This document shows positions 3,233-25,739 of a stretch of 25,739 nucleotides of DNA, piece after piece. Made by a program: the position numbers and the translations under genes. The notes beneath the pieces were generated by a model, which had not been told where the DNA came from, made no database searches, and saw only the letters and a list, made by a program, of their open reading frames with translations. Origin of the DNA: a virus; the IMG/VR virus record IMGVR_UViG_3300009164_000321, positions 1-25,739 of that record. One strand, written 5' to 3'. The stretch's first letter is position 1. Every line of letters starts with the position of its first letter.

Positions 3233-3234
3233 TT

Positions 3235-5903: not shown

Positions 5904-5924
5904 TTAGAAACTAATTAACTTTAC

Positions 5925-5960
5925 AGAGAGGAGTGTTTTTATACTCCTCTCTTTTTTCTT
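5925..5960 (+). terminator. Strong intrinsic terminator before primase
   Basis: A perfect 10-bp stem AGAGAGGAGT (5925-5934) / ACTCCTCTCT (5943-5952) can extend by two inner pairs and is followed by a T-rich tract to 5960. It should end transcripts of the Sak4/SSB unit. The primase ATG is the next base (5961), leaving no room for a separate leader, so primase expression must depend on readthrough or processing. Confidence 0.9.
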
Positions 5961-6962: not shown

Positions 6963-6964
6963 AG

Positions 6965-7182
6965 ATGAATAAAGTAGAAATGCTAGCAAAAGCTAGTAAA
7001 GATTTAATGTTGAAAGAGCCCTATTACGGGTTCTTTTTGATTCAACTAAATAAGTTTTGGTCTGAAAAAATCCCCACTGCTGGTGTAGGTAAAAATGGTA
7101 TCAATTATCAATTGATTATTAATTCTAACTTTTGGGAAGAATTAAATGATGACCAGAGATTGGGTATTTTAAAACATGAGCT
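6965..7182 (+). CDS. Zincin-like/VWA (DUF2201-type) protein, exon 1
   Basis: The first exon codes for 72 residues plus two bases of codon 73, ending LGILKHE-CT. Splicing to 8284 gives HELLHIAFGH, a HExxH metallopeptidase-like motif at residues 71-75 with a third His at 80. Unspliced reading gives only Leu-Ser-Val and then TAG. The exon ends in U, and GAGCU (7178-7182) pairs with GGCUC at 7192-7196 with a U-G wobble at the splice site, the standard P1 helix. The gene starts 2 nt after the primase stop. Confidence 0.88.
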
Positions 7183-8283: not shown

Positions 8284-9244
8284 ATTACACATTGCATTTG
8301 GTCATTTATCTATTGTGTTTAAGTTCTCTGATAGAAAGCTTGCTAATATCGCAATGGATATGGAAATCAATCAATATATTCCTAAAGATTGGCTCCCTGA
8401 AAACGGCATATTTATTGAAAACTATCCAGATTTAAACTTAGATACAAAAGCAGGCTGTCGTTATTATTATGATAGACTAAGACTTGCTAAGGATCAAAAG
8501 GATCAAACAGGAACTTCTGGTGATAGTAATTTTGATAAACTATGTGATCAATTAGATCAAGGTGAAGGAGATCCTGATCACAGCACGTGGGATGAATTTG
8601 AAGATTTATCTGAGGCAGAACAAAAGCTTATTGATAAGCAGGTTCAGAGAATTTTATCTGAAGCTAAAGAACAAACTTTGAAAAAACAGGGACATGTTCC
8701 TGGAGAAATTGATGGTCTAATCATAATCGATGAGATACTTGCTCCTAAATTTAATTGGCGAGCTTATCTCCGTAGGTTTACAGGAATATCTACTAAAATT
8801 TTTACTAAGAAGCTTAGAAGAAAAGATAATAAGAGATATTCTGATAATCCTGGATTAAAGATTAAGATGCGTCAAAAGATGTTGCTAGCAATAGATACAT
8901 CAGGTTCTGTTAGTGAAGATGAATTAAAAGAATTTATGAATGAGATTTATCATATTCATAAAGCAGGTGTAGATATTACAATAATACAATGTGATACGCA
9001 GATTACATCTATTGAAGATTACAAAGGTAAATTTGAATTAAAAGTATCTGGTAGAGGAGGAACATCATTTGATCCTGTATTAGAATATTTTGAGCAAAAT
9101 CGTCAATTTACAAGTTTAATCTATTTTACCGACGGTGAGTGTTTTACTCATAAAAAACCGTCAGGGAAAATTTTATGGGTTTTATCTGAAAGATCCAACA
9201 TGAATGAATCTCTTCCTGGAAGAGTAATTAAACTCGAACTTTAA
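8284..9244 (+). CDS. Zincin-like/VWA (DUF2201-type) protein, exon 2
   Basis: This exon completes codon 73 and encodes residues 74-392. The zincin-like N-terminus continues LHIAFGHLSIVFKFSDRKLANIAMD. A charged linker follows, then a VWA-like domain with the MIDAS residues: DTSGSVS (277-283), the Thr of GRGGTSF (about 333) and FTDGE (354-358). This is the DUF2201 pattern, a metallopeptidase-like domain joined to VWA, and such proteins pair with MoxR AAA+ ATPases; the next gene encodes one. Likely roles are chaperone-like remodelling or metal insertion; the phage target is unknown. A GTG at 8315 could be mistaken for a start. Confidence 0.87.
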
Positions 9245-9255
9245 AAAATTAATAA

Positions 9256-9675
9256 ATGAATCAAGTAAAATTAAATGTAGACGAGTTAAAGAACTTCGTC
9301 AAACACATGGTGAGCAATAATCAAGCTATTCAAGCAGAAGGTAAAGTGCCTGTAACTGTGAATATCGCTGGCGATGCGGGGCTCGGTAAAACTTCCGCAA
9401 TACTTCAGTTGGGAGAAGAATTAGGATTATCTGTTGTAAAACTAAATCTATCTCAAATAGAAGAGTTAGGTGATCTTATCGGTTTTCCTATTAAAGAATT
9501 TAAAGTTAAGAATGCTGAAGGTAAAACTCTATGGATTACTGAGCAAGAAATTGAAACAGCAAGTTCTAAAGGTTATAAAGTAGTAGACAAACGAATGTCT
9601 CATGCTGCGCCAGAATGGATTCAGGGTAAAGAAGAAGGCGGGATTTTAATTTTAGATGATTTTACTCGTGCGGAT
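9256..9675 (+). CDS. MoxR-type AAA+ ATPase, exon 1
   Basis: The 140-codon first exon carries Walker A GDAGLGKT (39-46) and Walker B GILILDDFTRAD, with Asp134/Asp135. The exon ends after GAT (Asp140), and an intronic TAA follows at once, so unspliced translation stops exactly at the splice site. Joined to 10724 it reads DDFTRADPRFMQATME, the continuous MoxR/dynein-like AAA+ sequence. It is the ATPase partner expected for the VWA protein upstream (11 nt gap). The 5' splice site follows U9675, and GCGGAU pairs with the guide GUCCGC at 10489-10494. Confidence 0.9.
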
Positions 9676-9719
9676 TAATAAAATATGCAGTCTAGTAGTG
9701 TTAGTGTGAATAATTTAAT

Positions 9720-9727
9720 TATCTTTG
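9720..9727 (+). promoter_or_regulatory. Bacteroidota -7 box before GIY-YIG gene
   Basis: TATCTTTG matches TAnnTTTG exactly and ends 4 nt before the endonuclease ATG (9732). Transcription would start at or very near the ATG, giving a leaderless messenger. No clear TTTG lies at -33. Confidence 0.4.
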
Positions 9728-9731
9728 TGAT

Positions 9732-10481
9732 ATGGAAAAATTAAACATGCAAACACTTAAGATAGCATTAAAGAGTATAGGAATCTATAAAATTAAAATT
9801 AATGATAAAGAGTACATTGGTAGCTCTTGTAATATTGGTCATAGATTAAAACATCATTTGTGGTCTCTTGAAAATTTAAAGCATCATAATAGAACAATGC
9901 AAAATTTATACAATAAGTATGGTAAAGATGAAATTTACTTTAATATTGTAGAAGAGTGTAATGATGATGTATTAATAGAAAGAGAAGCATATTACATTAG
10001 TACACTTAAACCTTATATAAATCATATATTGGATCCTCAAACTTTAGTTAGAGATGATGTATATAAACAAAGAATAAGTGATGCTAAGAAAAAAGCTTAT
10101 GCAAATGGTTTAAAACCTCACAATCTTAAAGCAGTGTACAAATATTCACTTGATAATGGAGAATATTTAGAAAGTTTTGAATCTCTCACAGCTGCTGCTA
10201 AATCTATTAATGCTAAAAGTATTAATAGTATTAAAGCAGTATGTAATAGTAAACAAACTTCTGCAGGAGGATATGTATGGTCTTATAACAAAGTTGATCT
10301 AGTTTTTACTAGGGAAAAGAAATATAAGCTAGAACCAGTATTACAATATACTACTAATAATACTTTTATCAAAAAATGGGAGTCTATTACTGCAGCAAAA
10401 AAAGAATTAGGTATTGCTAATATTAATAGAGCAATATCTAAAAATTTAACTGCTGGTGGGTATAGATGGAAAAAAGCATAA
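9732..10481 (+). CDS. GIY-YIG homing endonuclease with NUMOD1-like repeats (intron 3)
   Basis: The 249-aa protein starts with a GIY-YIG nuclease domain: GIYKIKINDKEYIGSS (17-32) carries both signature parts, with Arg38 of the helix and the catalytic Glu85 in EREAYYIS. After a linker come two NUMOD1-type DNA-binding repeats, about 138-186 (VYKYSLDNGEYLESFESL..SAGGYVW) and 205-249 (VLQYTTNNTFIKKWESI..TAGGYRW). It should cut intronless copies of the MoxR-like gene. It sits in the P1 loop of intron 3, with a -7-like box directly before the ATG. Confidence 0.92.
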   Translation: MEKLNMQTLKIALKSIGIYKIKINDKEYIGSSCNIGHRLKHHLWSLENLKHHNRTMQNLYNKYGKDEIYFNIVEECNDDVLIEREAYYISTLKPYINHILDPQTLVRDDVYKQRISDAKKKAYANGLKPHNLKAVYKYSLDNGEYLESFESLTAAAKSINAKSINSIKAVCNSKQTSAGGYVWSYNKVDLVFTREKKYKLEPVLQYTTNNTFIKKWESITAAKKELGIANINRAISKNLTAGGYRWKKA

Positions 10482-10723
10482 ACGGGTGGTCCGCAATAAA
10501 TCATGTGAATTCAGGGAACCTCCAGAGATGGACAATCCTGAGCCAAGCCTTATAGGGATATAAGGAAGGTGCAACGACTAGTGTATGGAGTCTAGAACAG
10601 ACAGTAAAACACCAAGAGCGCATGACACATAGAAATATGTGATGATATAGTCTGAACTGTGTGTATAATCTAATAATAAAGACACAGAACTATGGGATAA
10701 AGAGCCTATAGGATAACAAAATG

Positions 10724-11473
10724 CCCCGTTTTATGCAGGCAACAATGGAAATCTGTGATAGACAAGAATATATTTCATGGAAACTTCCTAAAAATTGGCA
10801 TGTTATTTTGACTACTAATCCTGACAATGGTGATTACAATGTAACTACACTTGACGTAGCTCAACAGACTCGTTTTATTTCTGTAGAATTGAAATATGAC
10901 GTTAACGTATGGGCTAAATGGGCAGAGGAAGTAAAGATTGATGGTCGTTGTATTAACTTTATGTTGATGAATCCTGAGTTAGTAACTCAAAGAGTAAATC
11001 CAAGATCGATTACTACATTCTTTAATGCAATTAGTTCTATTCCAAAATTTGAAGATCAATTGCCGTTGATTCAAATGATCGGTGAAGGTTCTGTGGGTAC
11101 AGATTTCTCTGGGATGTTTACTATGTTTATCAATAACAAACTTGATAGAATTATAGGGCCAGAAGATATCTTGACAAAAGATGAAGGCTATGTGATTGGA
11201 GCATTGAAAGATATGATAGGAGAAGATGATGACTTTAGAGCGGATATTTCTAGTATTGTAGCAACTCGTGTGGTAAATTTCTCTTTAAATATGGCGAAAA
11301 CTAAAAGTATTCCTGATGCTATGATTCAAAGACTCGTTAAGCTAACTACTGATACTAAAGTGTTTACCGAAGATTTGAAATATTACATTGTCAAAGAATT
11401 ACTTAATGGCAATAAACCTAAGTTTAGTAAATTAATGTTAAACCCGCTTGTCGTAAAGATGGCAATTAAATAG
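10724..11473 (+). CDS. MoxR-type AAA+ ATPase, exon 2
   Basis: The second exon continues PRFMQATMEICDRQEYISWKLP (residues 141-162), then the sensor-1 segment HVILTTNPDNGDYNVTTLD (Asn172), QTRFISVEL with a likely arginine finger (Arg190), and a helical lid. The spliced protein is 389 aa, usual for phage members of this family. An ATG at 10721 spans the intron end and first exon base and is not a true start. The protein likely works with the VWA/zincin-like protein upstream as a remodelling ATPase pair. Confidence 0.9.
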   Translation, partial: PRFMQATMEICDRQEYISWKLPKNWHVILTTNPDNGDYNVTTLDVAQQTRFISVELKYDVNVWAKWAEEVKIDGRCINFMLMNPELVTQRVNPRSITTFFNAISSIPKFEDQLPLIQMIGEGSVGTDFSGMFTMFINNKLDRIIGPEDILTKDEGYVIGALKDMIGEDDDFRADISSIVATRVVNFSLNMAKTKSIPDAMIQRLVKLTTDTKVFTEDLKYYIVKELLNGNKPKFSKLMLNPLVVKMAIK

Positions 11474-11481
11474 TAGAAATT

Positions 11482-12651
11482 ATGGGATTAGAAAAAGGAC
11501 AGTACCTGTATCTTACTGTAGATATGCAAACAGATGATAATACTTCTAGAGAAATTACTTTTTGCAAAATTGGAATAGACAGTAATTTATATATGGATAA
11601 TTATGATCAAGTGATTAATATCAAACATCATGATTATACTCCGCAGATAGGAGATAAACTATATTTTATGCCTGGCGTAAATATTCCAAGGATTAAACTA
11701 AAAGATTTAGCAATAAATTATAATACTAAAACTGTTAGAGATCCTTTAGAAGCTAATGTAATTTTTGCAGGAACTAATACTGCTGCAAAAATGACTGATA
11801 CAGCTTGGGAATATTCTATTCCTACAGATTTGTTTAAAGATTTTATTGATGTAGCAGAAGAGCATTTAGATGAGCATGATAAAGAAAAAGTAAAAACTGC
11901 TTTAGAATTTTATGATAAACCTATCATATTAACTAATTGGGGTACTTGTAATACTTTGAGTTATGAACATTTTAAAATTTACAAAAATCAAATTATAAAT
12001 ACAGGAATTGCTATTAGAGCAGCAAGAGAATCTCATAGAGTTTATAAAATTAATAATGAAGATTTTGCATTATATGATAAAGTAAAAGATTTAGAACTTT
12101 ATTCTGAAACTGCATTATTAGATAAACTTAATGGTAAAGATTCTGTTATTATCAACTCTGAAGTATACGATCAATTAGAAGCAATGTTAAAAAGTAGTGA
12201 TGAAGACAATCACACTATGGCTATGGAAATTATGGCTAACTGTAATTATCGTGAAAGCTTGTTATATTTAGAGTTTCTCTTTAAAGAATATTCTTATAAG
12301 TTTGCCAATTGTTCTGCAAAAAATCATGTTAACTTTAAAAGTCTTCTTGCTTATTTAGGAAAAGATAGAACTTCTATGGGCACATCTATTGATGAAATTA
12401 TGGATAGTTTGATAGATAAAAACGTTCTTACTGAAGATAAAGTAGAAGAAATTCTAAAAAGATATTCTTATGAAATTAGTCAATACGGAGATAAAAAATA
12501 TTTTAAAGTAAAATCTATTACTCTGCAACAAGAAACTCTTACACTTTTAAATGCTAATTATGTACATGAGACTGTACAAAATTTTATTCCTGTAGAAGTA
12601 GAAATAATCGAAGCGCCTGTTGAACAACAAGAGGAAGTAAAATGGACATAA
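11482..12651 (+). CDS. Hypothetical protein (389 aa)
   Basis: No family is recognised. The protein is acidic and appears folded, with no signal peptide or membrane segment. The N-terminal 110 residues look beta-rich (QYLYLTVDMQTDD, KIGIDSNLYM, GDKLYFMPGVNIPRIKL); the rest is mostly helical, and the C-terminus is acidic (VEQQEEVKWT). It sits between the MoxR gene (8 nt gap) and the resolvase-like gene (3 nt gap), so it belongs to the replication/recombination operon. A terminal acidic stretch with a near-terminal Trp loosely recalls the SSB-like tails upstream. Confidence 0.85.
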   Translation: MGLEKGQYLYLTVDMQTDDNTSREITFCKIGIDSNLYMDNYDQVINIKHHDYTPQIGDKLYFMPGVNIPRIKLKDLAINYNTKTVRDPLEANVIFAGTNTAAKMTDTAWEYSIPTDLFKDFIDVAEEHLDEHDKEKVKTALEFYDKPIILTNWGTCNTLSYEHFKIYKNQIINTGIAIRAARESHRVYKINNEDFALYDKVKDLELYSETALLDKLNGKDSVIINSEVYDQLEAMLKSSDEDNHTMAMEIMANCNYRESLLYLEFLFKEYSYKFANCSAKNHVNFKSLLAYLGKDRTSMGTSIDEIMDSLIDKNVLTEDKVEEILKRYSYEISQYGDKKYFKVKSITLQQETLTLLNANYVHETVQNFIPVEVEIIEAPVEQQEEVKWT

Positions 12652-12654
12652 ATT

Positions 12655-13161
12655 ATGGTGAGTGAATTGAAACTAGAGTTTCCGCAATTTATCACGCATA
12701 TACCACAAAGTCAGAAAGTATGGATCAAAATTGGTTACAATAAGATCCATGCTTCTGTACATTACACTACAAGGGCTGCGCTAATTGCAGCAATGCACGG
12801 ATATATTGAAAAGAATATCCCTGATAATCTTACAATACAAGGTCCTGTGGAAACAAAATTGACGGTATTTGCACCTTTAAATTTCGGGACTATGAAAATG
12901 TTATTAGACAAACAAACGAAAAAGCGAAGAGTTAGTTGGAATCCTGCTCCCGTAGGATATAAACCTAATTGGGATATAGGTAATTTGGCTTTAATTTGGC
13001 TAAAGTGTTTAGATGATGTGATGGTAAAGAAAGGGATTCTTCCCGATGATACTGTTGAATATCTTCAAAGAACTACTTATGAGTATATTCCAATTGATGA
13101 CTTTGCTAACAGAAAATTAGTTTACAGAATTAAAACAATTAAAAAGCATGGAAGATTATAG
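12655..13161 (+). CDS. RusA-like Holliday junction resolvase
   Basis: The 168-aa protein matches RusA in its C-terminal half: NWDIGNLALIWLKCLDDVM (106-124) followed by KKGILPDDTVEYLQ (125-138) parallels RusA RDLDNLQKAAFDAL and GFWLDDAQV. RusA is a dimeric, metal-dependent resolvase that cuts four-way junctions from phage recombination. Asp107 and Asp131/132 are kept, but the second Asp of DxDNL is Gly109 and the following Lys is shifted, so activity may be altered. The gene overlaps the next one by 14 nt, linking it to the PD-(D/E)XK nuclease. Confidence 0.6.
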   Translation: MVSELKLEFPQFITHIPQSQKVWIKIGYNKIHASVHYTTRAALIAAMHGYIEKNIPDNLTIQGPVETKLTVFAPLNFGTMKMLLDKQTKKRRVSWNPAPVGYKPNWDIGNLALIWLKCLDDVMVKKGILPDDTVEYLQRTTYEYIPIDDFANRKLVYRIKTIKKHGRL

Positions 13162-14182
13162 AGATATCAAGAAAGTGAATCAAAGCTCTTTAAAAAAGAT
13201 TCTTACAAGCCCTAAAGCATATCTACAAGCAGTAGACAGAATGAAAAATCAGGATGATGATATGACACCTGACCATTTTATCTTTGGCAGTGTAGTAGAT
13301 ATTATGTTGATGGGAACAAGAGAAGATTTTGAGAAGAGATTTGTAAAGATTCCTGATGAAACAAAATGTAGTGAGACTGTACAAGCAATTGTTGCGCAAG
13401 TATTTGCCTGGGCAATAGAAGAAAAACAAGAAGATGATCTAATATTTGGATTATCTGCTTACAATGATTTTATCTCTGATGCTTGTATTACTTTTAATTA
13501 TCAATCAAATTGGAAGCCAGAGACTAAGGTTGCTAAAATTATCGAGCAAGGTAGTGAGTATTTTAATTTACTCAAGACAATGGTTGGTAGAACACCAGTG
13601 ACTGAAACAGAATACGCTAATGCGGTAAATTGTGTTATGGCTCTTAAAGCAGATACTTATACTAAACAATTTGTAGACGCTAAATTCGATAAGAATATGG
13701 AGTTTATTAATAGGTTTATTGTGGAATTTGAAATAGAAGGAGTAGAGATGAAAGGGGAGTTAGATCGTGTAGCTATAAATCACGAGACTAAAAGAATCTT
13801 TCCTATAGATTTCAAAACTACTAGCAAACCTGTAACAGGATTTGAGTATGAGTTTTGGAAGTATCGCTATGATTTTCAAGCTGCAACTTATGGTTATGGT
13901 TTAAACAGAGATCCTCGTATTCAAGAGTTACTTGCTAAAGGCTACACAGTGGTACCGTTTCTTTATATTGTAGTAGAAAAACAACTTAATAATAATCCTA
14001 TGGTATTTGCAGTAAGCAATGAAGCAATGACTGTAGGATTTGTAGGCGGTGAAGCTCATGGAAGAGAATATGAAGGTCTAAAACAAGCATTATTGCGTTA
14101 TAATTATGCAGTAAAAAATAATGCTTGGGAATATCCTATGGAGTATTATGACAATGAAGGTAGTATATTTATAAGAGTATGA
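13148..14182 (+). CDS. PD-(D/E)XK nuclease, RecE/Cas4-like exonuclease
   Basis: The 344-aa protein shows the core of phage PD-(D/E)XK exonucleases: QSSLKKILTSPKAYL (12-26), HFIFGSVVDIML (43-54), MKGELDRVAI (201-210) and PIDFKTTS (219-226, Asp221 and Lys223). YDFQAATYGYGL (241-252) contains the trailing Gln-Tyr helix motif. With Sak4 and SSB it forms the exonuclease/annealase/SSB set of phage recombination. It overlaps both neighbours (14 nt upstream, ATGA 4 nt downstream), so all three genes are translationally coupled. Confidence 0.82.
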   Translation: MEDYRDIKKVNQSSLKKILTSPKAYLQAVDRMKNQDDDMTPDHFIFGSVVDIMLMGTREDFEKRFVKIPDETKCSETVQAIVAQVFAWAIEEKQEDDLIFGLSAYNDFISDACITFNYQSNWKPETKVAKIIEQGSEYFNLLKTMVGRTPVTETEYANAVNCVMALKADTYTKQFVDAKFDKNMEFINRFIVEFEIEGVEMKGELDRVAINHETKRIFPIDFKTTSKPVTGFEYEFWKYRYDFQAATYGYGLNRDPRIQELLAKGYTVVPFLYIVVEKQLNNNPMVFAVSNEAMTVGFVGGEAHGREYEGLKQALLRYNYAVKNNAWEYPMEYYDNEGSIFIRV

Positions 14183-14796
14183 AAGAATTAAAATACACAT
14201 ATACCGCAACTTTTTTGTTTCCAATGTTACAAGTACCTAAAGCATTCTTTGATTGTGATGTCAAAGACATGTTTGGTAGATTGCAGTTTAAAACTAGATT
14301 TATAAATGCGTATTTATCTGATACTTGTGTTACAAAATATAATAATGAGAATTATATATTTGTATTATTGAGAAACTATAGAGATGTGAATTTTGATGTA
14401 TTTTATTCTACACTTCAAGCATTTCCTAATTATGTGGATGATTATGATAATAAAGAATGTCTAATAGTAGTGTTCAGGGTTCCTGAAGAGACTATGGAAG
14501 ATTATCAGCTATTACTAAATGGCGGATATTCTATGATCAGTAAAGATGCTAAAGCTTTAATTCTAAAGCATAGTTTTTTCAGCGGTCAGCCTATGACTCT
14601 TCCATTAATTTTACACAAATCTGATGTATTAAAAGAAAGTTGGGAAACTAGGTTAAGTACTCTTGGTTCACCTGCTAATCTTTATGATCAGGAAGTTTGG
14701 CCTATTATAGACAGAGAGAAGGAAGAATTGAATCAATCAATTATAAATTCACAATGTAAAAAGAAGCATTTATCACCAACAGAGGAGGGCTTTTAG
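14179..14796 (+). CDS. Hypothetical protein (205 aa)
   Basis: No family is recognised. The protein is soluble with a mixed alpha/beta pattern; segments such as ENYIFVLLRNYRDVNF and ECLIVVFRVPEETMEDYQLLL look like a small alpha/beta domain, and the C-terminal 40 residues are charged and helical. The start overlaps the nuclease stop (ATGA). The stop codon lies in the loop of the terminator at 14778-14812, so the gene is the last of this transcription unit. Confidence 0.85.
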   Translation: MKELKYTYTATFLFPMLQVPKAFFDCDVKDMFGRLQFKTRFINAYLSDTCVTKYNNENYIFVLLRNYRDVNFDVFYSTLQAFPNYVDDYDNKECLIVVFRVPEETMEDYQLLLNGGYSMISKDAKALILKHSFFSGQPMTLPLILHKSDVLKESWETRLSTLGSPANLYDQEVWPIIDREKEELNQSIINSQCKKKHLSPTEEGF

Positions 14797-14812
14797 TCCT
14801 CCTTTGTTTTTT
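14778..14812 (+). terminator. Intrinsic terminator ending the nuclease operon
   Basis: AACAGAGGAGG (14778-14788) and CCTCCTTTGTT (14798-14808) form an 11-bp stem with one G-U pair and a 9-nt loop, followed by a run of T to 14812. The stop codon of the preceding gene is in the loop. Confidence 0.9.
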
Positions 14813-14890
14813 AATTAGGAAAACTATATTATATAGTGACGACAAGGGCTCTGAAATATGGGCCATTGTTATTTTATTAAAACTAGACTA

Positions 14891-15757
14891 ATGGAAAAAA
14901 TCGTAAAATTTGTTAATAGAAAAAGTTTTATAATAAGACATTCTGGTAGATCATCAGATTATATAACTCCCTCATTTGGCTACGGCTGTTTACTAGACTG
15001 TTCGTATTGCTACATGAAACGCCATAAACCTAAAGGTTTAGATGTGGCTAAAAATATTGGAGATATTTTGACTAGTATTAATAACCATGCTTATTTTGAA
15101 AATCGAGTAGAAAAGCCAAATCAAACGGATCCTGAGTTTGTAACTTATGATATTTCGTGCAATGAAGACTTTGCATTACATGCTAAGTTTTATGATTGGC
15201 AAAGAATTTTTGATTTCTTTAAACAACATCCAGTTGCTAAAGCTACTTTTGCAACTAAAATTATTCCAGAGATTTTCTTAAACTATGATCCTGAAAGAAA
15301 AGTAAGGATTAGATTTAGTTTAATGCCGCAGAGACTATCAGATATCTATGAGCCTAATACTGCTAAGATTATTGATAGAATAAAAGCTATTGATGGTTTT
15401 ATCGATGCAGGGTATGAGGTGCATGTAAATTTTAGTCCTGTAATTGTCTATGATAATTGGCTAAAAGATTATGAGGAATTGTTTTATATGATGAGTAATT
15501 ATGTAGACAACAAAGATGAAGTACTTGCTGAGGTTATTTTTATGACCCATAATATTAAGAAGCACGAAGAAAATCTTATGAACAATCGATTAGGAGAGAA
15601 GTTATTATGGATCCCAGAATTACAAGAAGGTAAAACTTCACAGTATGGCGCGGAAAATGTAAGATATCGCTATGATTTAAAAGCTAGATATATTAAAGAG
15701 TTCACTGAGCTTCATGATAAAATTATCCGTTGGAACACTATTAGGTATATATTTTGA
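14891..15757 (+). CDS. Radical SAM protein, spore-photoproduct-lyase-like
   Basis: The 288-aa protein has the radical-SAM cluster motif CX3CX2C in GYGCLLDCSYCYMKRH (Cys33, Cys37, Cys40), in a context like that of spore photoproduct lyase and its phage/bacterial relatives. Those enzymes use a 5'-deoxyadenosyl radical to reverse a thymine lesion in UV-damaged DNA. Further family-like segments are VTYDISCNEDFALH, KATFATKII, RIRFSLMPQ and VHVNFSPVIVY. The ATG at 14891 was preferred over one 11 codons upstream because the intervening bases look like an AT-rich leader. A weak promoter (TTTG 14803, TATATTAT 14825) may lie upstream. The UDG-like gene follows 2 nt later. Confidence 0.8.
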   Translation: MEKIVKFVNRKSFIIRHSGRSSDYITPSFGYGCLLDCSYCYMKRHKPKGLDVAKNIGDILTSINNHAYFENRVEKPNQTDPEFVTYDISCNEDFALHAKFYDWQRIFDFFKQHPVAKATFATKIIPEIFLNYDPERKVRIRFSLMPQRLSDIYEPNTAKIIDRIKAIDGFIDAGYEVHVNFSPVIVYDNWLKDYEELFYMMSNYVDNKDEVLAEVIFMTHNIKKHEENLMNNRLGEKLLWIPELQEGKTSQYGAENVRYRYDLKARYIKEFTELHDKIIRWNTIRYIF

Positions 15758-15759
15758 GT

Positions 15760-16434
15760 ATGAAGACAAAAGATTATTGGGTAAACAAATTAGGAGAAGG
15801 TTGGACTATGGCTTTAAGAAATCTCTTAAAGTCAAAGTACATGGATAAACTAGAAATGTTTCTTGCTATTGAATACAGCATGAAAGACGTTTTTCCTGAA
15901 GATCAATCTATAGTATTTAATAGTTTGAAATTATGTCCTTATGAAAAACTTAAAGTAGTAATTATAGGGGAGGAACCTTCTAGAACTCATGGTACTGGAC
16001 CATTAGCCTTCTCTGACGCTTCTACTATTTCTATAAATTGCTGCGCATCTGCTATTCGTAATTCTTTTCCTGACTTACATTTAGGGTTTGACACAAGCTT
16101 TTCTCCTTGGGCAGAGCAAGGAGTATTAATGTTAAATAGAAGTCTTACATGCTTGCAAAATGAACCAAAAAGTCATAAATTGCAATGGAAGAAATTCTTT
16201 GGTAGTGTGTTGCTTCATATTTTAGTAGAAAAACCTAATGTAATCTTTTTATTATGGGGAGAAGAGGCTCAAAAATACATACCTTTTTTAGAGTCTCATG
16301 CAGTTTTTACTTGCGATAGTCCCTATCAATATGGTAAAGTAGGCAACAAATGGATTTGTCCTAATTGGGAACAAGTAAATATATTTTTAGAACAAATTTA
16401 TGGAAAGGGAACTAACAATATCATTCAATGGTAA
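15760..16434 (+). CDS. Family 1 uracil-DNA glycosylase homologue, altered active site
   Basis: The 224-aa protein aligns along family 1 UDG: [22 protein letters not shown] (64-85) matches [37 protein letters not shown] matches the WAxQGVLLLN motif, [10 protein letters not shown] matches the FxLWGxxAQ strand, and the end resembles VLANQWLEQRG..IDW. Key residues differ: GQDPYH becomes GEEPSR (catalytic Asp to Glu, thymine-excluding Tyr to Ser), and the HPSPLS loop becomes CDSPYQ (catalytic His to Cys). It may have changed specificity or a structural role, like the poxvirus UDG processivity subunit. The ATG at 15760 was preferred over an in-frame TTG at 15754. Confidence 0.8.
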   Translation: [224 protein letters not shown]

Positions 16435-16786
16435 ACAAGTAATTAAAAAATATTCTAAAGGAAGAAATCATTATACTAGAACGAGTTTTCCTAAATCAAT
16501 GCTTAAACTAATAGTTCATGATGCACTATTTAATCGTATGAAAACTAAGATTATATGTGTTAAATATAATATTTCAGAAGAAACTTTAAATGAAATAATT
16601 TTTACTTATAAAATTACAGGAGGAACCTTTAATGAGCGTATAGAAGATATCCCTATACTAGGATGTAAAGAAGAGTCGTATTATACTGAGGAAGAATTAT
16701 TAAATTTGCCTTCCCAGTATTCTTGGGATGAGGTATCAGAAACAGAAAAACAATTTTATTTTAATTATGGAAGAAACAACAGTTAA
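16400..16786 (+). CDS. Hypothetical protein (128 aa)
   Basis: No family is recognised. The N-terminus is basic (GKQVIKKYSKGRNHYTRTSFPKS). A segment KTKIICVKYNISEETLNEIIFTY has the pattern of a helix-turn-helix, so DNA binding is possible. The C-terminal third is acidic. The gene overlaps the UDG-like gene by 35 nt and the MazG-like gene by 20 nt in other frames, which argues for coupled translation. Confidence 0.7.
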   Translation: MERELTISFNGKQVIKKYSKGRNHYTRTSFPKSMLKLIVHDALFNRMKTKIICVKYNISEETLNEIIFTYKITGGTFNERIEDIPILGCKEESYYTEEELLNLPSQYSWDEVSETEKQFYFNYGRNNS

Positions 16787-17225
16787 CAGAGAAGATGTAG
16801 TAAGTATGGTAAAACATTGGAGTCATATATTCCATTTACCTATTTTAGATTATCCTAAGTTCCCAGAAAAAGAACGTATTAATTTAGCTATGGAATTAAT
16901 CCGTGAAGAATTAGCAGAAATACATGAAGGAATTAGTAAAAGGGACATTCGTGAAGTGCAAGATGGTCTTGGAGATTTACTATGGGTAGCTCTCCGTGCT
17001 ATGATGGAATTCGGAGTTGACCCTGTTAAGACTATTGATGCTATTTATGAATCTAATATGTCAAAGGCTGATTATACTATAGAAGCAGCAATGGAAACAA
17101 AAAAGAAGTATAATGAGCAAGGCATACAAACTTATATAAAAATACGGCATGATGCATATATAACACACCGTGCTGGAGATAATAAAGTATTAAAATCTAT
17201 TAACTATAAAGAGCCAAAGCTATGA
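16767..17225 (+). CDS. MazG-like nucleotide pyrophosphohydrolase
   Basis: The 152-aa protein carries the all-alpha NTP pyrophosphatase pattern: REELAEIHEG (46-55) is the EExxE metal motif and VQDGLGDLLWVAL (64-76) supplies the second acidic pair. ESNMSKAD (95-102) is the typical closing motif. Such enzymes hydrolyse (d)NTPs or alarmones to monophosphates, and phage copies may clean the nucleotide pool or blunt host (p)ppGpp signalling; the substrate cannot be told here. The start MEETTVNRED was chosen because the 13 extra upstream codons lie within the previous gene. Its TGA overlaps the next ATG. Confidence 0.82.
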   Translation: MEETTVNREDVVSMVKHWSHIFHLPILDYPKFPEKERINLAMELIREELAEIHEGISKRDIREVQDGLGDLLWVALRAMMEFGVDPVKTIDAIYESNMSKADYTIEAAMETKKKYNEQGIQTYIKIRHDAYITHRAGDNKVLKSINYKEPKL

Positions 17226-17401
17226 ATGTAGAGATACTTAAAAGTTTAAAAGAGCAAAAAGCTCATTTAGAATTTAAAGTTTATCAAAGTAAAATCAATG
17301 ATCATTTTGTCGATGCTGAAAAGTATCAACAAGAATTAGACGATGTAGAGTTTTTAATTACCACTTATAAACAAAGACATGAAAGTAGGCAGCAAAGTTA
17401 G
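17222..17401 (+). CDS. Small coiled-coil hypothetical protein (59 aa)
   Basis: The ORF begins MNVEILKSLKEQKAHLEF and continues as two probable helices with heptad-like spacing (ILKSLKEQKAHLEFKV, YQQELDDVEFLITTYK). It overlaps the MazG stop (ATGA) and the next gene's first 23 nt, as expected in a packed phage operon. Function is unknown; small paired helices often mediate protein-protein contacts. Confidence 0.65.
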   Translation: MNVEILKSLKEQKAHLEFKVYQSKINDHFVDAEKYQQELDDVEFLITTYKQRHESRQQS

Positions 17402-17711
17402 ATGCATAGATGATACTGTTAAATTAGGGATGGAAGAGTTTGTAGCAAATGCTTATCAGAATTGGGTTAAGGAAGGTGAAGATTACATTGTAAGGGATGT
17501 GTTTGAAAATGGAGGAATAGTAGATGGTATAGTACTTGAAGGGCTCTATAATTTGCCTATTTACCAATCTCTAATATGTGCTGTGCAAGAACCTGCTTTT
17601 AGGGCTACTCGATTTGCAGAATTAGAAGAGTATATTGAAGAGGCTATAACAGAAGAATCTATTATGAGAGATTTTATTCAAGAATTTGCTACTGTAATAG
17701 AAGGGTTATGA
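17379..17711 (+). CDS. Hypothetical protein (110 aa)
   Basis: The N-terminal half looks like a small beta-barrel: MKVGSKVRCIDDT, EGEDYIVRDVFENGG and GIVLEGLYNLPIY, a pattern seen in many phage proteins of unknown role that open with a K-x-G-x-x-V-R-C strand. The C-terminal half is an acidic helix (AELEEYIEEAITEESIMRDFIQEF). No function is recognised. It overlaps both neighbours (23 nt before, ATGA after). Confidence 0.75.
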   Translation: MKVGSKVRCIDDTVKLGMEEFVANAYQNWVKEGEDYIVRDVFENGGIVDGIVLEGLYNLPIYQSLICAVQEPAFRATRFAELEEYIEEAITEESIMRDFIQEFATVIEGL

Positions 17712-18091
17712 CAGGAGAATTAAAAGAATTAGAAGAAGGATCTGTGACATATATTATTATGTTAGCAGCATTTCAAGTAGTATTAAATTGTCAGTTAGAA
17801 TTAAAAGGTACTATCTACGATCAGAGCCCTGTAGCAAATAAAGTACGCGAAGCAGTAAACATGCTGAATCTTAAAAACAGCCGTAATCGAGATAGGATTT
17901 GGCAAGTTGATGATAAGAAAGCCGCAGATATGATGTTTAGTATTGAAAAAATAGCAAAACTAATATCTAAATCTGATGGAGTAGCAATATGTGCTATTGC
18001 AGATTTGCTGAGAAAAAACTTAGATTTTAGTAAAGTTTTAATTAGTGAACTTTCTGATGAAGAATTAGAAAAAATAAAAGCCACTATGTAA
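17708..18091 (+). CDS. Hypothetical protein (127 aa)
   Basis: This mostly helical, soluble protein is the last rightward gene. The hydrophobic segment VTYIIMLAAFQVVLNC near the N-terminus could be a buried or membrane helix, but charged residues flank it closely. A second helix pair (KAADMMFSIEKIAKLIS, VAICAIADLLRKNLDF) follows. No family is recognised. The stop codon lies inside the hairpin at 18077-18104. Confidence 0.75.
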   Translation: MTGELKELEEGSVTYIIMLAAFQVVLNCQLELKGTIYDQSPVANKVREAVNMLNLKNSRNRDRIWQVDDKKAADMMFSIEKIAKLISKSDGVAICAIADLLRKNLDFSKVLISELSDEELEKIKATM

Positions 18092-18121: not shown

Positions 18122-21100
18122 CTAATTGAATCCGTTATCCTCTTCTGTTTCCTCCTGAAGACTGTCTACAATAATTTTCATATTCTCATCTTCTGTATCT
18201 TGATCAGAAGCTAATCCTGTAGGAATTAACCAATTTGATGTTAGTCCTTTATTTGTCACACTGTTTACTTGATCAGGAGACATCCAGTCGTAGACTTTAG
18301 AATCTACTAGATTTTTAATAAATCTATTTTTTAATTCTGGATACTGCATTTCATAAAGGTTTTTAAACGGTTGTTTTCTAAACCAATATTTTTCTGCATG
18401 TGTTGCTCCTTTATACATACCTGATTCATATACTTTACCGCTGAATGCTTCAGAGATATCTAATAAATCTTTAATCATTTTTGCTCCTCCTACAGGCTCA
18501 TCAATCATTTGGATAAGCTCTGCTGGCGACCATGCTGCTCCTTGTTCTAATAATAATCGATTCATTTGGTAAGCGGCATATTGTGTAGTCCAATCGTCAT
18601 CGTCGGATCCGTCTGCAGCAAGATTTACCATAGAAGCAAGTACTGCGACAATGTTTAAGTAAAGCAAATCTAATGCTGTTTTAGCTACTCCTCGTTTTTT
18701 AGCAGGAGATAAAGTATTCCAAGTAGCAAAAGATGCTTGTAATCCTGCACGATCTTTTACAAGAGTTTTAAAGAATTGTCTGAAGATAAAATCAAAACTT
18801 GCTCTGTAAGTTCCTATTTCCTCTTCTTCTGTAATCATATTAGTTCCTTCACGTCTGAATCTTGTATCTACCATTCCGATAAACCATCCACGGTGCATTA
18901 GTAAGAAATCTCCTGCAATGCTTCTAGAAAGTTTTCCTTTATCGGTTTTACTCATGGTACCGTCTACATAAGTAGTAACATTCTCAATCTTACCTGCAGC
19001 ACTGTTTAGTATTGCTGGTGTAACATATTTTTCAAATTCTGGTTTTACTACAAGATTTCCATCTACAACATCATGGGCATTGTATAAACTTTTTTCACGT
19101 AGTTGTGACCATTCTTTTTTAAATTCCTTTTGAGTTTTGCTAGGATCTTCAGCCTGACGTAATTTAAAATAAGTAGCTCTTGTTATAAATTGATTGTTGT
19201 ACAAACGATAGTTATCATAGATAGCTAAAGCAATACGTCCTTTAATGCCGTAGTCACCTGTAGCAAAAGTTGCATACATTAAATCACGATTAGCAATCTT
19301 TCTAATAGCCCTATTTTTAGTAGTTTCATAAAGCATTCTTTCTAACTCTACTACTCCTGCTTGTTGTAGCATTAAGTGCATTTTGTTAGTTTGTTTTGCT
19401 TTCCCCATTTCTCCTACTACTTGAAAAAGGTTAGAGAAAAATTCTCCGCGGGCCCAGTTTTTACTTTCTGTAGTAGTGTAGACACCGATAGCATCTTCTA
19501 TAATACTATCACCTGATCCTTTTAACCATCCTGATATACTAGTAGGAATGTTAAAAGCTAAGTTGTTGTTTCTAATAAAAGTAGCAAATCTTTGTGAAGC
19601 TTTTGTCCATGAAAATTGTTTACCTGCAATACCTAAAGCGTTTGTGATTTTATTTTCTGGTAAAGGTTTAGTAGCTAATGTATCACGCTCAATGCCGAAA
19701 ACATGTGAATCTAAAAGTATTTCTAGTGCTTTGTACTCATTAGTTTCAATACCTTTTTTACGTTGGCCTTTTTTATTTACATAGTTTCTTTCTGCTAATG
19801 CATATTGTATAGATCCTAAGTCTCCAGCAATTTTATTCATTTCCTGGAAGTTTTCTGCCATCTCTGAAAATAAAGTAACACTTCTAGCTATATCATAAGA
19901 TAAATCTTTTGTAGAATCTAATTCTCCTGTAAAATAAATAGGAACCATTTTATTATTCAAAGGATTTAACTGTCCAAATTGTGTTTCATCCTGATTAATA
20001 AATAAAGATTCTGAAGCAAGAGTAGCCATAGTTCCCATAAAAGATTTGGCTCCTTTAATTTGTGCTACTCTATCTAGTGTAGATTTTAGCATTGGTGGCA
20101 CCATATAAACTAATCTTTGCGTTCTATATGCCAAAGGAAGTTTATTTATTGCTTCTGTTTTAGTTTTTATCAATAATTCATAATAAGCTTTTGTAGCAGG
20201 GTTCTGCATTGCCTGTTCGAACTTTTGACTTTTATAAGAATCATTAGGAACTTTAACTTTTACTCTTGAAACTCCGTTAGAAGTTTTAGAAATAACAACT
20301 TGTTCTTTAGTATTATTTTTAAAGAATTCTGACCATAGTTTCTTTTTAATTTCTATTTGATCTTTTGTAAGGAACATTGGTTGAATGTCATTGTAATCAT
20401 CAAATCCTAAAGCTTTGGCTATTTCTTCTTTTGTCTTAGCCATTGTGCGGTAATATTTACCCATATCGTACTCTTGTACAAAATAGTGGCCAAGATTACC
20501 GTCTTCTCCTACTTCAATTAAATCATCGATTTTACCTCCTGATTTTAACATTGCTTGTTGTGCAGATAATAAATCATTTGCAGTTTTTGTAGCAAACCTT
20601 TTGATTCTTTGAATAGAATCAAATATAATTTTATGTGCAGCTTTGATTAATTTAGAATCTGCATATTTGTAATTACCCACTTCTAGCCTCCAAGCACTAA
20701 CATCATCAGAAGTTTCTTTTGCTACCATGTCTGGATCAAAAGCAGGATCAATAGGATTACCATTAGCATCAGTATTTGCTTCAGTAAGTACTCCTCTTGT
20801 AACTCTGTCGATCAAACTTTTGTTTAAACTTTTTGTATCTCGTATTTCGATAGCAATATTGTGAATTTGCTTACGTAATTCTTCTGTTTCTTCTACAGGA
20901 ATATTATTATCGTACATGGACTCCACAAACTTGTTAAAGATATTATCATACATGTTTAAGAAGTCTTGGGAACTTTTAATAATACCTGAATTAATTACTC
21001 CTGATTGTCGAGCATTAATTAAAGTTTTTGTTATACTGGCAATTTCACTTGATGCTAATTCTATGAATCTAGAAATTGCTAAATCCATTTCTCCTTTAGC

Positions 21101-22327
21101 AATGTTTTGATTGATTCTATTTAACTCTGAATCAATAGCATTAATAACACTAACACTTTTTAAACCTGCTTTAAGTTTCTTCATTCTAGCTTGAAGCTGG
21201 AATACAGCTTCTTCTAAGAATTTCTTTTTGTTTTCTATAATAGGATCTGGTACTGGTACTTCCTCTTCTTCCTCATCTTTATCTAATTGATAGAGCAAGT
21301 TAGCATCTACAGGAATTGCATCTAAAGTACCTATTTTCTCATTATTTAAAATGCTTATAGCTAAAGGTTTTAATATAGTTTCAAGTTCTTGTCGAGCAGT
21401 AGTTTTAGAATTAAAATTAGCTTTTACCCACTTAACAAATTTTTCTTTGATAGCTTTTAAGTATGCCCAAAATCCTTTTTCTTCTGCGTTCTCATTTTTA
21501 TGAGCTTTAACTAGCTCTTGCGCTAGTATCTTTCCTACTGCTTCTTTTCTAAAATCTTCTTCAGCCTTGTAGATATCTTTGTAATCCTCTTTTACTATGC
21601 CGTAAATTTCTGTTTGATCTACAGTCTGTAAAGCGCGCATAACGGAAGGATCGTTCTTCATTAACTCAATAGCAAAGTGAGCAATCTCTTCAGGAAGAGT
21701 ATCTATTTTAGCATCATCAGCTAGGCCTATTAAAGCATTTGCAAAATCTGCTACTCCTAAAATACCTCTCTCATAGCGTCCTTCAAATCTTTCTAATAAA
21801 GAATCAATTGCTTCAATAGAAATACCGTGGGTTTTTGCCCAAGCATAAAGTTTTTTATTTAGATTTTCATCTGCTGCTTCAGAACTTTCAGAAGCTGTTT
21901 GTCTAAACATTCCGTTGGCTTCTGGAGAATAATATCCTTCCATAGTAACAGGTCGGTTTTTATATCCTGCTACGTACCATTTATTAGTAGCGCTACGACG
22001 TAAATGCCAATCTACATCTCCTATTTGACGGGAGATTTGTTGTAATGCTTTATTGATATATTCTATTTCTTCTTTGTCTCTACGCTCATCAAGATCTTGA
22101 TTATACACATAATCAAAATAAATTTCTTTAGCTTGTTCTTGATAGTAGTTTAACTTTTCTTTTTGATACAAAACATCATTAGTAGTAAGTTCCTTTGCGC
22201 TAGGAAATCTTTCATCACCGTTTTGATCCATCCATAAACTAATCTTTGCTTTTAGTACGTCTGGATGTAGATTAGTAGAATTTTCTAAAGCTTTATAATC
22301 GGGATGAGAAATATTTATACAATGCAT
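18122..22327 (-). CDS. Giant putative virion protein (1401 aa), crAss-like transcription block
   Basis: This large leftward gene starts 4 nt after the RNA polymerase gene's stop and ends just before a terminator, so both share one transcript. No catalytic domain is recognised with certainty. Near residues 205-222, KIDTLPEEIAHFAIELM resembles the metal-site helix of zincin-like domains in large phage polyproteins, but the first His of HExxH is Glu. The middle is long, charged and helical with coiled-coil character (380-500). A hydrophobic stretch LLYLNIVAVLASMVNLAA lies near 1221-1238, followed by DGSDDDDW. In crAss-like phages, giant proteins next to the RNA polymerase are thought to travel in the virion and be ejected into the host; this is inferred from position. 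Confidence 0.85.
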   Translation of the reverse strand: MHCINISHPDYKALENSTNLHPDVLKAKISLWMDQNGDERFPSAKELTTNDVLYQKEKLNYYQEQAKEIYFDYVYNQDLDERRDKEEIEYINKALQQISRQIGDVDWHLRRSATNKWYVAGYKNRPVTMEGYYSPEANGMFRQTASESSEAADENLNKKLYAWAKTHGISIEAIDSLLERFEGRYERGILGVADFANALIGLADDAKIDTLPEEIAHFAIELMKNDPSVMRALQTVDQTEIYGIVKEDYKDIYKAEEDFRKEAVGKILAQELVKAHKNENAEEKGFWAYLKAIKEKFVKWVKANFNSKTTARQELETILKPLAISILNNEKIGTLDAIPVDANLLYQLDKDEEEEEVPVPDPIIENKKKFLEEAVFQLQARMKKLKAGLKSVSVINAIDSELNRINQNIAKGEMDLAISRFIELASSEIASITKTLINARQSGVINSGIIKSSQDFLNMYDNIFNKFVESMYDNNIPVEETEELRKQIHNIAIEIRDTKSLNKSLIDRVTRGVLTEANTDANGNPIDPAFDPDMVAKETSDDVSAWRLEVGNYKYADSKLIKAAHKIIFDSIQRIKRFATKTANDLLSAQQAMLKSGGKIDDLIEVGEDGNLGHYFVQEYDMGKYYRTMAKTKEEIAKALGFDDYNDIQPMFLTKDQIEIKKKLWSEFFKNNTKEQVVISKTSNGVSRVKVKVPNDSYKSQKFEQAMQNPATKAYYELLIKTKTEAINKLPLAYRTQRLVYMVPPMLKSTLDRVAQIKGAKSFMGTMATLASESLFINQDETQFGQLNPLNNKMVPIYFTGELDSTKDLSYDIARSVTLFSEMAENFQEMNKIAGDLGSIQYALAERNYVNKKGQRKKGIETNEYKALEILLDSHVFGIERDTLATKPLPENKITNALGIAGKQFSWTKASQRFATFIRNNNLAFNIPTSISGWLKGSGDSIIEDAIGVYTTTESKNWARGEFFSNLFQVVGEMGKAKQTNKMHLMLQQAGVVELERMLYETTKNRAIRKIANRDLMYATFATGDYGIKGRIALAIYDNYRLYNNQFITRATYFKLRQAEDPSKTQKEFKKEWSQLREKSLYNAHDVVDGNLVVKPEFEKYVTPAILNSAAGKIENVTTYVDGTMSKTDKGKLSRSIAGDFLLMHRGWFIGMVDTRFRREGTNMITEEEEIGTYRASFDFIFRQFFKTLVKDRAGLQASFATWNTLSPAKKRGVAKTALDLLYLNIVAVLASMVNLAADGSDDDDWTTQYAAYQMNRLLLEQGAAWSPAELIQMIDEPVGGAKMIKDLLDISEAFSGKVYESGMYKGATHAEKYWFRKQPFKNLYEMQYPELKNRFIKNLVDSKVYDWMSPDQVNSVTNKGLTSNWLIPTGLASDQDTEDENMKIIVDSLQEETEEDNGFN

Positions 22328-22331: not shown

Positions 22332-25300
22332 TTAACAATTTTTTAGTTGTTCTATTATTCTTTCTTGCTCGTCTAAAGGTAAGGCAATAAATTCACTTTG
22401 AGGCATTTTACCTCCTAATTCTTGGTAATCTTTCCAATTTAAACTTTGAAATAATCCAAATTTTTGAGTGCCTTCTTGATCCATCATAGCCGCTCTTCTT
22501 GATTTAGGAGTAGTAGCTGGCGTTATTGAAGCAGGTACTGTGGTTGGCGCAGTAGATCCAGTAATTGATCCTAAAGTTTGTCCTAATTCTGCTGGTAACA
22601 TACCTGATTCAATTTCTGCCCGCATTGCTGCTTCAATAGCATCTTGTTCTGCAGCTAGTTGATTCGCCATTGATTGTTTTGCTACAGTAGGATTAGGAGT
22701 TCCTTTAATTTTATCTAAAATAGAATTTTGAATATCATTATCAAAATCGTACTCTAAAGTAAAATTAGGAGTTCCTAAAGAACTAATAGGTTTGTAAGTT
22801 ATTGTGTTAATGTAATTTCTATTGTCAAAATCTGCAGGATTCTTCTTATCATAAGCAGTTTCAATGTGTTCATAGAATTTAACTTTACCTTGTACGTATC
22901 GTTTAATATATTTTACAGGACGGCCGTCGATAATTAAATGCTGATTCTTAGATTCATTAATAACTAAATATCCTTTAGATGTAAGAACTACACCTCCTTT
23001 AGAACTGTAAGCTTCTCTTGTGACAACATTGTTAATATTCTCCGCTGTAGTTCCTTCTTTTTCTTTTTTAAGAGCTACATCTTCTTTAACCGTCATTAAG
23101 AATGGCTCTTTATCTCCGTTATTTCTAATGAATTGATTAATGAATCTTGTCTTCCAAGGAGCAGAATCGCCTAGTAAATTCTTTTCCCATAATGCATTCT
23201 TTAAAAACTCATTAAATGGACGGCCCACGCTGTCTACTATATTGTTTGCTAATTGGTATTCATTTGTCCAGAATTTTACTGGCACCATATTAGCAAAGCT
23301 ATAAGGACCAAATCCGTACCCATTTGTAAAGTAAGTGTATTTAACAAGGTCTTGTGCTAATTGTTTTACTGCAGGATCGGTATCCTCCAACATTCGTTGC
23401 CATGCATATTTTAATTGCTGTGTTTCAATTGGCGTTTTACCTGTGGAATAAAATTCTATTCTTCTAATAGGAGAATATTTATTCTTTTCTACTACATAAA
23501 GTTTGTCAATAAAAGGTTTGTACGGCGCAAACTTGTCCATAGATTTTTTAAAGTCTAACAATCTTTTTGGAGTATTGCCTATGATATCTTCTGCTTGAGA
23601 ATATTTGAAGAACGGAAACTTACTTGCGATAAAATTCATAAAATGAATATCAACCATGTGAGCCTCTTTTTCTGATAAATATGCTGTAGCCTTTTGTGCA
23701 GCAAATTCATTTTTTAATTCTCCTAGTACAGAGAAATTTACTTCGCCATTAATATTGACTTCTCCGATTGATGGGTAGATTTTATTTAGTATATTAATAG
23801 GACCTTGCAATCCGTATTTAGTAAATGCAGGTACTATTAATTGATTAGATCCCCCTAAGAAAACTTCTTCTAATCCTATTACTCTGTTAGTGTTTTTTCT
23901 GTTTTTAGCAAGTATTCTTTGTTGGCCACTAATCATTACGTAGTTAGTCCCACTTGTAGGCCCGACACCTACTGTGTCAACTTTAGATGCACCAATTCCT
24001 TGAGCAAGATCTGCAGCTGTTCCATAAAAATCCTCAAAAGAAGTAAGAGCTTTTAACTGCACTTTATAGTAATCTACAGAGCCATCTGGTACTAGATTTT
24101 TTTCTAATAATTCCTGAGTTAAACTAACATCAGATAGATCTTTTTCATCTATGCCTTCTTCTTTTAATTTATCTTTTAGTAAAGATTTCCACTTGCTTGA
24201 GATTTGTGCAAACTGTTTATCATTACTTAATGAACCTCTTTCATTGAAATACTTTTGAGTTAATTCCAAAATTACAGGTTGATTCATTAGTGCAAAAATA
24301 GTAGGCTCATTGACGCCGAGTCTCTGTAACATTGCGACAGTGTTCGCTGTAAATGTGTTTAGATTCAAGAATGAAGAAATAGGCTCTTTTGCATTATCCA
24401 CTACTGCTGCTAATGAAGATGCAAGTAATTTAGAAATTCTTTCTCCTTTACTATTATAAACTCTATTTAATTCTAAGAATTGTTGTCCATCTAATTCTAT
24501 ACTAGATACTAATGATAAATTAGTATATTGAGATTTAGCATGGTGAGTATTGTGGTTAGCAAAAACCCCAATCAACTGTTTACCTGTCATGTTACGACGG
24601 TAAAGTTCTAACTGTGTAGAAGGATAGTTGATATTAAAATCTTGATTATCTAAAGAGTCAGCGGCTTTAATTAAGTCTTTGCCTTTTAGACTATTTGCCT
24701 CAGCAACTTTTCCTGCTTGCAATAATCTTATTCTACTAGAAGCAACTTTTAAATTATCAAAATTTCCAGGATTTACAATTGCTGCTGTTGTATTAGAGTT
24801 TTCTAGAATTCCTTGAATAATGTCTAACTTTTTATTGTCTCTTGCTTGTTTAGTGTTGTACTCAACAGTATTGATATTTTTGCCAAGTTTAGTTTTAACA
24901 AATGCTACAGCACTTTTAACAGCTTCTTGACTCATCACATCATCTTGAAAAGGAATAAACTCTTCTCTCAATAATTCATATTGAGCATCGATAGTTTTCT
25001 GTATGAAATCTACCATTGGAGAATTCATTTTCTTTGCTGCTTTTAACTCTACTTTTAAATTTTTTAAAGATTCGTAGAGAGCAGCATTTTCTTTTTTAAA
25101 CTCAGCTTTTTCTTCTAATTGCTTCTCAATAAGTTCTCTTTGTATTTCTAGTTTCTTTTCTTGTTCTTTTGGATTTGAGACATTTTTTAAAATAAACGCT
25201 CTGTAGTCTTTAAAGCTTCTAAAAATATTAGCAGCAATCTCATCAGGATCCTCAGTGTATTTAATTGCTTTAGGATTGCCTTTAGCCGTTAGACTAAATG

Positions 25301-25739
25301 CCCTAGACATAAAATACAATTTATCAATATCGAAGTCAAGCCCTGCAATAGTAGTAATTTCTACAGGAAGTATTACTGTTCCTCCCATTGACGGCGGAGT
25401 AAAACCTACTATTTCTATATTGAACATAGAATATTTATCCTCTGTTGGGATCCTGTATCCTATTATTCTCAATAACTCTGGAGCATTTTGTTTTATACCT
25501 TCTAAATCTACTTCACCATTTTTATCTTTAGGGAAGAATTTTTTAGAAGTAGCTGGCAACATTGCTTGGTAAGTAATTGCTTTTGTCTTAGGGTCTACAA
25601 TCATTTTTAGATGTTCAGAAACACCAAATGATGTAGTGTTGATTAAATTACCTCCGTTAATTTTTTGTTTAGTAATTCTATTTTTAAAGAAAGAGTTCAT
25701 CAATGATTCCATTTTGTATGAAATCAATGGGTGATATAA
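22332..25739 (-). CDS. Giant crAss-like virion RNA polymerase, C-terminal part (partial)
   Basis: At least 1131 codons are seen, and the frame stays open to the window edge, so the N-terminal part lies outside. LPVEITTIAGLDFDIDKLY contains DFDID (coordinates 25323-25337), the three-Asp metal-binding motif of the double-psi-beta-barrel in the crAss-like virion RNA polymerase (phi14:2 gp66 type), related to YonO and eukaryotic RNA-silencing polymerases. Upstream, SLMNSFFKNRITKQKINGGNLIN fits the polymerase region preceding the active site. The polymerase is packaged and injected to transcribe early phage genes. A TTG at 25727 is not a real start. Near the C-terminus there is a Pro/Thr/Ala-rich linker (PTTVPASITPATTPKS). 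Confidence 0.85.
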   Translation of the reverse strand, partial: LYHPLISYKMESLMNSFFKNRITKQKINGGNLINTTSFGVSEHLKMIVDPKTKAITYQAMLPATSKKFFPKDKNGEVDLEGIKQNAPELLRIIGYRIPTEDKYSMFNIEIVGFTPPSMGGTVILPVEITTIAGLDFDIDKLYFMSRAFSLTAKGNPKAIKYTEDPDEIAANIFRSFKDYRAFILKNVSNPKEQEKKLEIQRELIEKQLEEKAEFKKENAALYESLKNLKVELKAAKKMNSPMVDFIQKTIDAQYELLREEFIPFQDDVMSQEAVKSAVAFVKTKLGKNINTVEYNTKQARDNKKLDIIQGILENSNTTAAIVNPGNFDNLKVASSRIRLLQAGKVAEANSLKGKDLIKAADSLDNQDFNINYPSTQLELYRRNMTGKQLIGVFANHNTHHAKSQYTNLSLVSSIELDGQQFLELNRVYNSKGERISKLLASSLAAVVDNAKEPISSFLNLNTFTANTVAMLQRLGVNEPTIFALMNQPVILELTQKYFNERGSLSNDKQFAQISSKWKSLLKDKLKEEGIDEKDLSDVSLTQELLEKNLVPDGSVDYYKVQLKALTSFEDFYGTAADLAQGIGASKVDTVGVGPTSGTNYVMISGQQRILAKNRKNTNRVIGLEEVFLGGSNQLIVPAFTKYGLQGPINILNKIYPSIGEVNINGEVNFSVLGELKNEFAAQKATAYLSEKEAHMVDIHFMNFIASKFPFFKYSQAEDIIGNTPKRLLDFKKSMDKFAPYKPFIDKLYVVEKNKYSPIRRIEFYSTGKTPIETQQLKYAWQRMLEDTDPAVKQLAQDLVKYTYFTNGYGFGPYSFANMVPVKFWTNEYQLANNIVDSVGRPFNEFLKNALWEKNLLGDSAPWKTRFINQFIRNNGDKEPFLMTVKEDVALKKEKEGTTAENINNVVTREAYSSKGGVVLTSKGYLVINESKNQHLIIDGRPVKYIKRYVQGKVKFYEHIETAYDKKNPADFDNRNYINTITYKPISSLGTPNFTLEYDFDNDIQNSILDKIKGTPNPTVAKQSMANQLAAEQDAIEAAMRAEIESGMLPAELGQTLGSITGSTAPTTVPASITPATTPKSRRAAMMDQEGTQKFGLFQSLNWKDYQELGGKMPQSEFIALPLDEQERIIEQLKNC

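Follow-up and report, generated by a model that had tools for sequence, protein, structure and literature searches.

The RNA polymerases (RNAPs) of the phages phi14:2 and crAss001 are components of the virion that enter the cell alongside the DNA and then transcribe the early genes (PMC7886860, PMC10172136, PMC10136315). Mass spectrometry of virions detects g065-g067 of phi14:2 and gp47, gp49, and gp50 of crAss001 (PMC10172136). RNAPs of up to ~6000 aa have been described in the literature (PMC10136315). In the convergent layout of the phi14:2 genome, the replication genes occupy one strand and run towards g065, g066, g067, and the structural genes, which occupy the other.

The window analysed here is the entire 25,739-base IMG/VR record IMGVR_UViG_3300009164_000321, which ends at 25739 (Table 1). 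A leftward frame ends in a single terminal stop and is open up to the contig end. It encodes the peptide GLDFDIDKLY at 25314-25343 (minus strand). The initial annotation had placed the DFDID motif of this peptide in a leftward frame open to the window end, and its coordinates, strand, and open frame were all borne out. D135, F136, D137, D139, and K140 were invariant in all 66 aligned sequences, many of which had been picked by the GLDFDID pattern. The differences from the nearest relative (L004) at the three codon positions were 0.32/0.22/0.46, indicating that the frame is under coding constraint. A TTG start listed at 25727 is mechanical because homology begins at the first codon and continues far upstream in the relatives.

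Table 1. Features of the window and the basis of their assignment.
Feature	Coordinates	Strand	Basis or remark
C-terminal 1135 codons of a crAss-like (phi14:2 gp66 / crAss001 gp50-type) DNA-dependent RNA polymerase	22332..25739	-	5' end cut by contig end
DFDID, the DxDxD catalytic motif, aligned to the gp66 DFDID starting at residue 1361	25323..25337	-	motif scan and PDB alignment
Residues 24-324, structurally aligned (predicted model) to the catalytic beta'-type subunit of phage and cellular RNAPs	24768..25670	-	Z 9-10 for AR9/PhiKZ and cellular chains
Low-confidence linker near the C-terminus, probably disordered (residues 1052-1099)	22443..22586	-	pLDDT under 50
1401-aa partner, homologue of crAss001 gp49 and phi14:2 gp65 (RNA polymerase-associated protein)	18122..22327	-	E=4e-36 to gp49, E=3e-11 to gp65
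Convergent replication/nucleotide block: PhoH, DnaB-type helicase, Toprim primase, VWA protein, others	263..18091	+	placed as in phi14:2

Sequence, profile, predicted structure, synteny, and phylogeny agree in supporting the fragment as a crAss-like RNAP of the phi14:2 gp66 family, as the initial annotation had claimed from the likeness of DFDID to the catalytic centre of these enzymes. A single-sequence search of the PDB (phmmer) found phi14:2 gp66 (6vr4) at E=1.1e-16 with DFDID placed on DFDID, and a profile made from the 66 sequences matched 6vr4 at E=2e-85, spanning gp66 residues 1224-2130. Further evidence comes from the AlphaFold model of the fragment (mean pLDDT 85.2, pTM 0.77). The initial annotation had proposed a structural search around DFDID, and a match to 6vr4 does exist there: it was the sole Foldseek match at E<=0.001 (E=6.6e-28), and VIA-align aligned 753 residues with Z=23.4 and an rmsd of 4.5. 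The runner-up chain in VIA-align had a Z of 9.8, and that tier consisted mostly of beta'-type subunits of phage and cellular RNAPs.

Could DFDID be an acidic string that arose by chance in some unrelated large structural protein of the phage? The giant proteins of the relatives do contain other D.D.D strings by chance, but a degenerate 30-base pattern for the 10-residue context had a single match in the window and none in 100 shuffles, and homology and the fold match to 6vr4 extend over ~900 residues. This reading carries next to no probability, as it is excluded by the structure alignment and the profile match to 6vr4.

The assignment to the crAss-like RNAPs is also reflected among phage records, 126 of which match the fragment at E<=1e-5. 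The top ones are annotated 'putative RNA polymerase', and the records belong mainly to Bacteroides, Flavobacterium, Cellulophaga, and uncultured crAss-like phages. In an RNAP tree (quick method, SH-aLRT support), the window forms a pair with L004 (93), and this pair belongs to a set of 18 rows (98) and to one of 22 rows (99). Neither Pfam nor PHROGs yielded an RNAP or zincin call, whether for the fragment or for a full-length relative. A scan of genome contigs found no relative that would point to a host. The best explanation overall, with a probability of about 0.95, is that the frame encodes the C-terminal beta'-like half of a single-chain two-barrel DNA-dependent RNAP of an uncultured crAss-like phage. 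In other words, the enzyme is a divergent addition to a known RNAP family.

The neighbourhood of the fragment follows the same pattern. The gp49/gp65 homologue adjoins the RNAP fragment, as expected of a crassvirus transcription block, and the layout is the same as that of phi14:2, with the plus-strand replication block converging on the RNAP and partner genes. RNAP and TerL were on the same strand in all of the relatives in which TerL was found (8/8). The partner protein has EEIAH at residue 213. The EE..H at this site is kept in ten compared relatives and in crAss001 gp49, and phi14:2 gp65 has HEIMH at the site in the same alignment. The EEIAH site may be a degenerate zincin site.

Several genes elsewhere in the window appear to be interrupted. 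The VWA-domain gene is split into 6965-7192 and 8315-9244, and the interruption (7190-8315) contains a LAGLIDADG-type ORF (7394-8230) that is flanked by weak group I intron matches at 7232-7391 (E=0.13) and 8116-8271 (E=0.00039). This element may be a widely mobile intron because bases 7190-7241 are 90% identical to part of the RNAP beta gene of Staphylococcus phage Machias. Another LAGLIDADG ORF (1267-2130) lies upstream of the C-terminal ORF of a DnaB-type helicase. Bases 2102-2213 are 85-91% identical to unannotated stretches of the gut crassviruses cr131_1 and cr7_1, and the element at ~1267-2420 is probably a mobile intron shared with them. Rfam showed no group I match there. Likewise, a GIY-YIG/NUMOD1 endonuclease ORF (9732-10481) lies in the gap (9679-10720) between ORFs 9256-9678 and 10721-11473, which look like two halves of one AAA ATPase. 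This gap is likely a third intron in the window.

How much of the RNAP lies beyond the contig end? In ten distinct close relatives whose frames are complete, the frame spans 2960-3678 codons, counted from stop to stop so that the true starts are possibly later, and DFDID lies at 1964-2513. Residue 1 of the window is matched at position 1830-2380 in these relatives, and from these frame lengths ~1,830-2,380 residues would be missing here. The initial annotation had anticipated a long N-terminal part beyond 25739, a prediction that the ten frames support with ~1,830-2,380 further codons. Before the matching point, there are ~1,223 residues in gp66 and ~1,345 in crAss001 gp50, and the relatives' part is longer than both. 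The relatives match gp66 from ~residue 800 onwards within one chain. Judging from them, the missing part, which includes the N-terminal half outside the record, would hold the beta-like barrel. An intron is also possible in the missing part because the window's own genes are interrupted.

The N-terminal part of the relatives' RNAPs contains an additional module. In 41 RNAP frames, a G...HE[AG]FH motif, with a conserved EE downstream, was found 1,216-1,549 residues N-terminal to DFDID. The HE..H and the downstream EE were present in 42 of 42 sequences (the 41 frames, all from relatives and not from the window, and crAss001 gp47), a set picked by HE[AG]FH in which the independent evidence is only the EE and the flanking conservation. 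The HEAFH region is homologous to the C-terminus of crAss001 gp47 (BLAST, e.g., E=6e-13 to L011), in which HEAFH starts at residue 2157. A model of the HEAFH slice was of low confidence (mean pLDDT 68, pTM 0.41) and gave no significant structural or profile match. The zincin call rests for this reason on the motif and the gp47 homology, which make this a candidate gluzincin-type metallopeptidase-like module. Within the supported clade of 22 rows to which the window belongs, 19 of 19 relatives reaching far enough carry the module N-terminal to the RNAP. Because the window sits inside this module-carrying clade, its phage likely carries the module on its RNAP as well, in the N-terminal part outside the record.

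The arrangement of gp47 differs among these phages. Dulem virus 41 has its gp47-like protein, RNAP, and gp49-like protein as three separate collinear genes, and the gp47-like protein (2474 aa) has GTVYHEAFH at its C-terminal end. In the L025 contig, gp47 is divided: the RNAP frame opens with its C-terminal part, and its N-terminal half is encoded by an independent frame of 1313 codons immediately upstream. A separate 1369-codon frame in the L019 contig matches the N-terminal half of gp47. The gene boundary in the window's clade therefore appears to fall inside gp47. The chances are somewhat better than even that this phage and its clade have a chimeric virion RNAP: the polymerase would carry on its N-terminus the C-terminal metallopeptidase-like module of the cargo protein gp47, and a separate gene would encode the remainder of gp47. 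The fused label needs several changes on the RNAP tree, and the fusion is accordingly not traced to a single origin.

Other HExxH domains were observed in this family. L006 and L010 have a second HExxH domain C-terminal to the RNAP (near residues 3229-3238). That of L006 matches phi14:2 gp65 residues 244-353 (E=6e-8), which looks like another case of a module moving between adjacent giant genes. Flavobacterium phage Fpv1 (L096; KU599877 34368-47573) has a crAss-like RNAP gene of ~4,400 codons that is annotated only as 'structural protein'; it contains GLDYDIDKE and an HExxH near the C-terminus.

Fusions of this kind have been annotated before. CrAssphage LMMB has an 'RNAP associated protein/zincin protease fusion protein' and an 'RNAP catalytic subunit/RNAP subunit fusion protein', and 'Rudgehvirus jaberico' carries a ZnMc_tr note. 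A zincin-RNAP fusion is not counted as new on account of these annotations and of the very large RNAPs already published (PMC10136315). Since Crassvirales annotations already include fusions of zincins and of RNAP subunits, the relatives' fusion is a variant arrangement. A search of the literature on crAss-like phages with zincin or metalloprotease found nothing relevant. A split gp47 with its C-terminal module on the polymerase was not found in the literature, which is weak evidence of absence as key papers were outside the search.

From the phi14:2 and crAss001 homologues, we infer that this RNAP is a virion enzyme. It would be made late and packaged in the head with partner proteins, and would then enter the cell with the phage DNA and transcribe the early/replication genes; its catalytic metal would be held by DFDID. 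Going by the relatives, the missing ~1,800-2,400 residues would supply the beta-like barrel and, N-terminal to it and in cis, the gp47 C-terminal metallopeptidase-like module. The module may process the giant chain or help its packing or ejection. A processing/ejection role for a protease domain has been proposed for N4-type enzymes (PMC5512222). Processing or ejecting the giant chain is favoured over a structural or host-directed role, at about even odds.

A different reading is that this homologue of the crAss-like RNAPs has lost its role as an active virion enzyme, the gene being decayed or truncated, or the RNAP serving only inside the cell. It is true that the 5' end is outside the record and that the packaging and activity of this enzyme are predictions. 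However, the 1135 codons run without a stop and under coding constraint relative to L004, the catalytic motif and the adjoining partner gene are intact, and homologues were found in virions (PMC10172136). The loss of virion function is therefore improbable, and a virion-type RNAP remains the preferred reading.

The RNAP places an uncultured contig firmly among the crAss-like phages and adds a divergent virion-type enzyme with many IMG/VR relatives. It also raises a testable question, namely whether the HEAFH module, which is on gp47 or on the polymerase depending on the crassvirus, processes or helps eject giant cargo proteins, in line with the N4-type proposals. If the chimeric RNAP is real, the unrelated virion RNAP of N4, with its own zincin fusion, is a parallel case, and having a protease in cis would seem to be favoured repeatedly when a giant polymerase has to be packaged or ejected.

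Among known systems, phi14:2 gp66 (PDB 6vr4) resembles the window in its homology over residues 1224-2130, fold, DFDID, neighbours, and convergent layout. However, identity is ~25% over the best BLAST stretch, and gp66 (2180 aa, ~1,223 residues before the matching point) is without a HEAFH module. crAss001 gp50 (Steigviridae) is 27% identical over ~1,100 residues (E=3e-79), and a gp49 homologue follows the RNAP as in the window. Unlike the window, it has DFDVD in place of DFDID, and the crAss001 RNAP genes run with the replication genes; unlike in the relatives, its HEAFH module is in a separate, oppositely oriented gp47. The nearest uncultured IMG/VR relatives, L004 (57%) and L013 (51%), are near full-length orthologues of the fragment and the partner gene. 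Their N-terminal part is present, with the HEAFH module fused to the RNAP, whereas the window lacks that part. The virion RNAP of coliphage N4 is comparable only in how it works, as a giant packaged single-chain RNAP with a zincin-like HExxH domain in cis (PMC5512222, PMC12633501). It is a single-subunit (T7-like) enzyme, not a two-barrel one, and is not homologous, and its HExxH domain is C-terminal to the polymerase, whereas the module of the crAss-like relatives is N-terminal.
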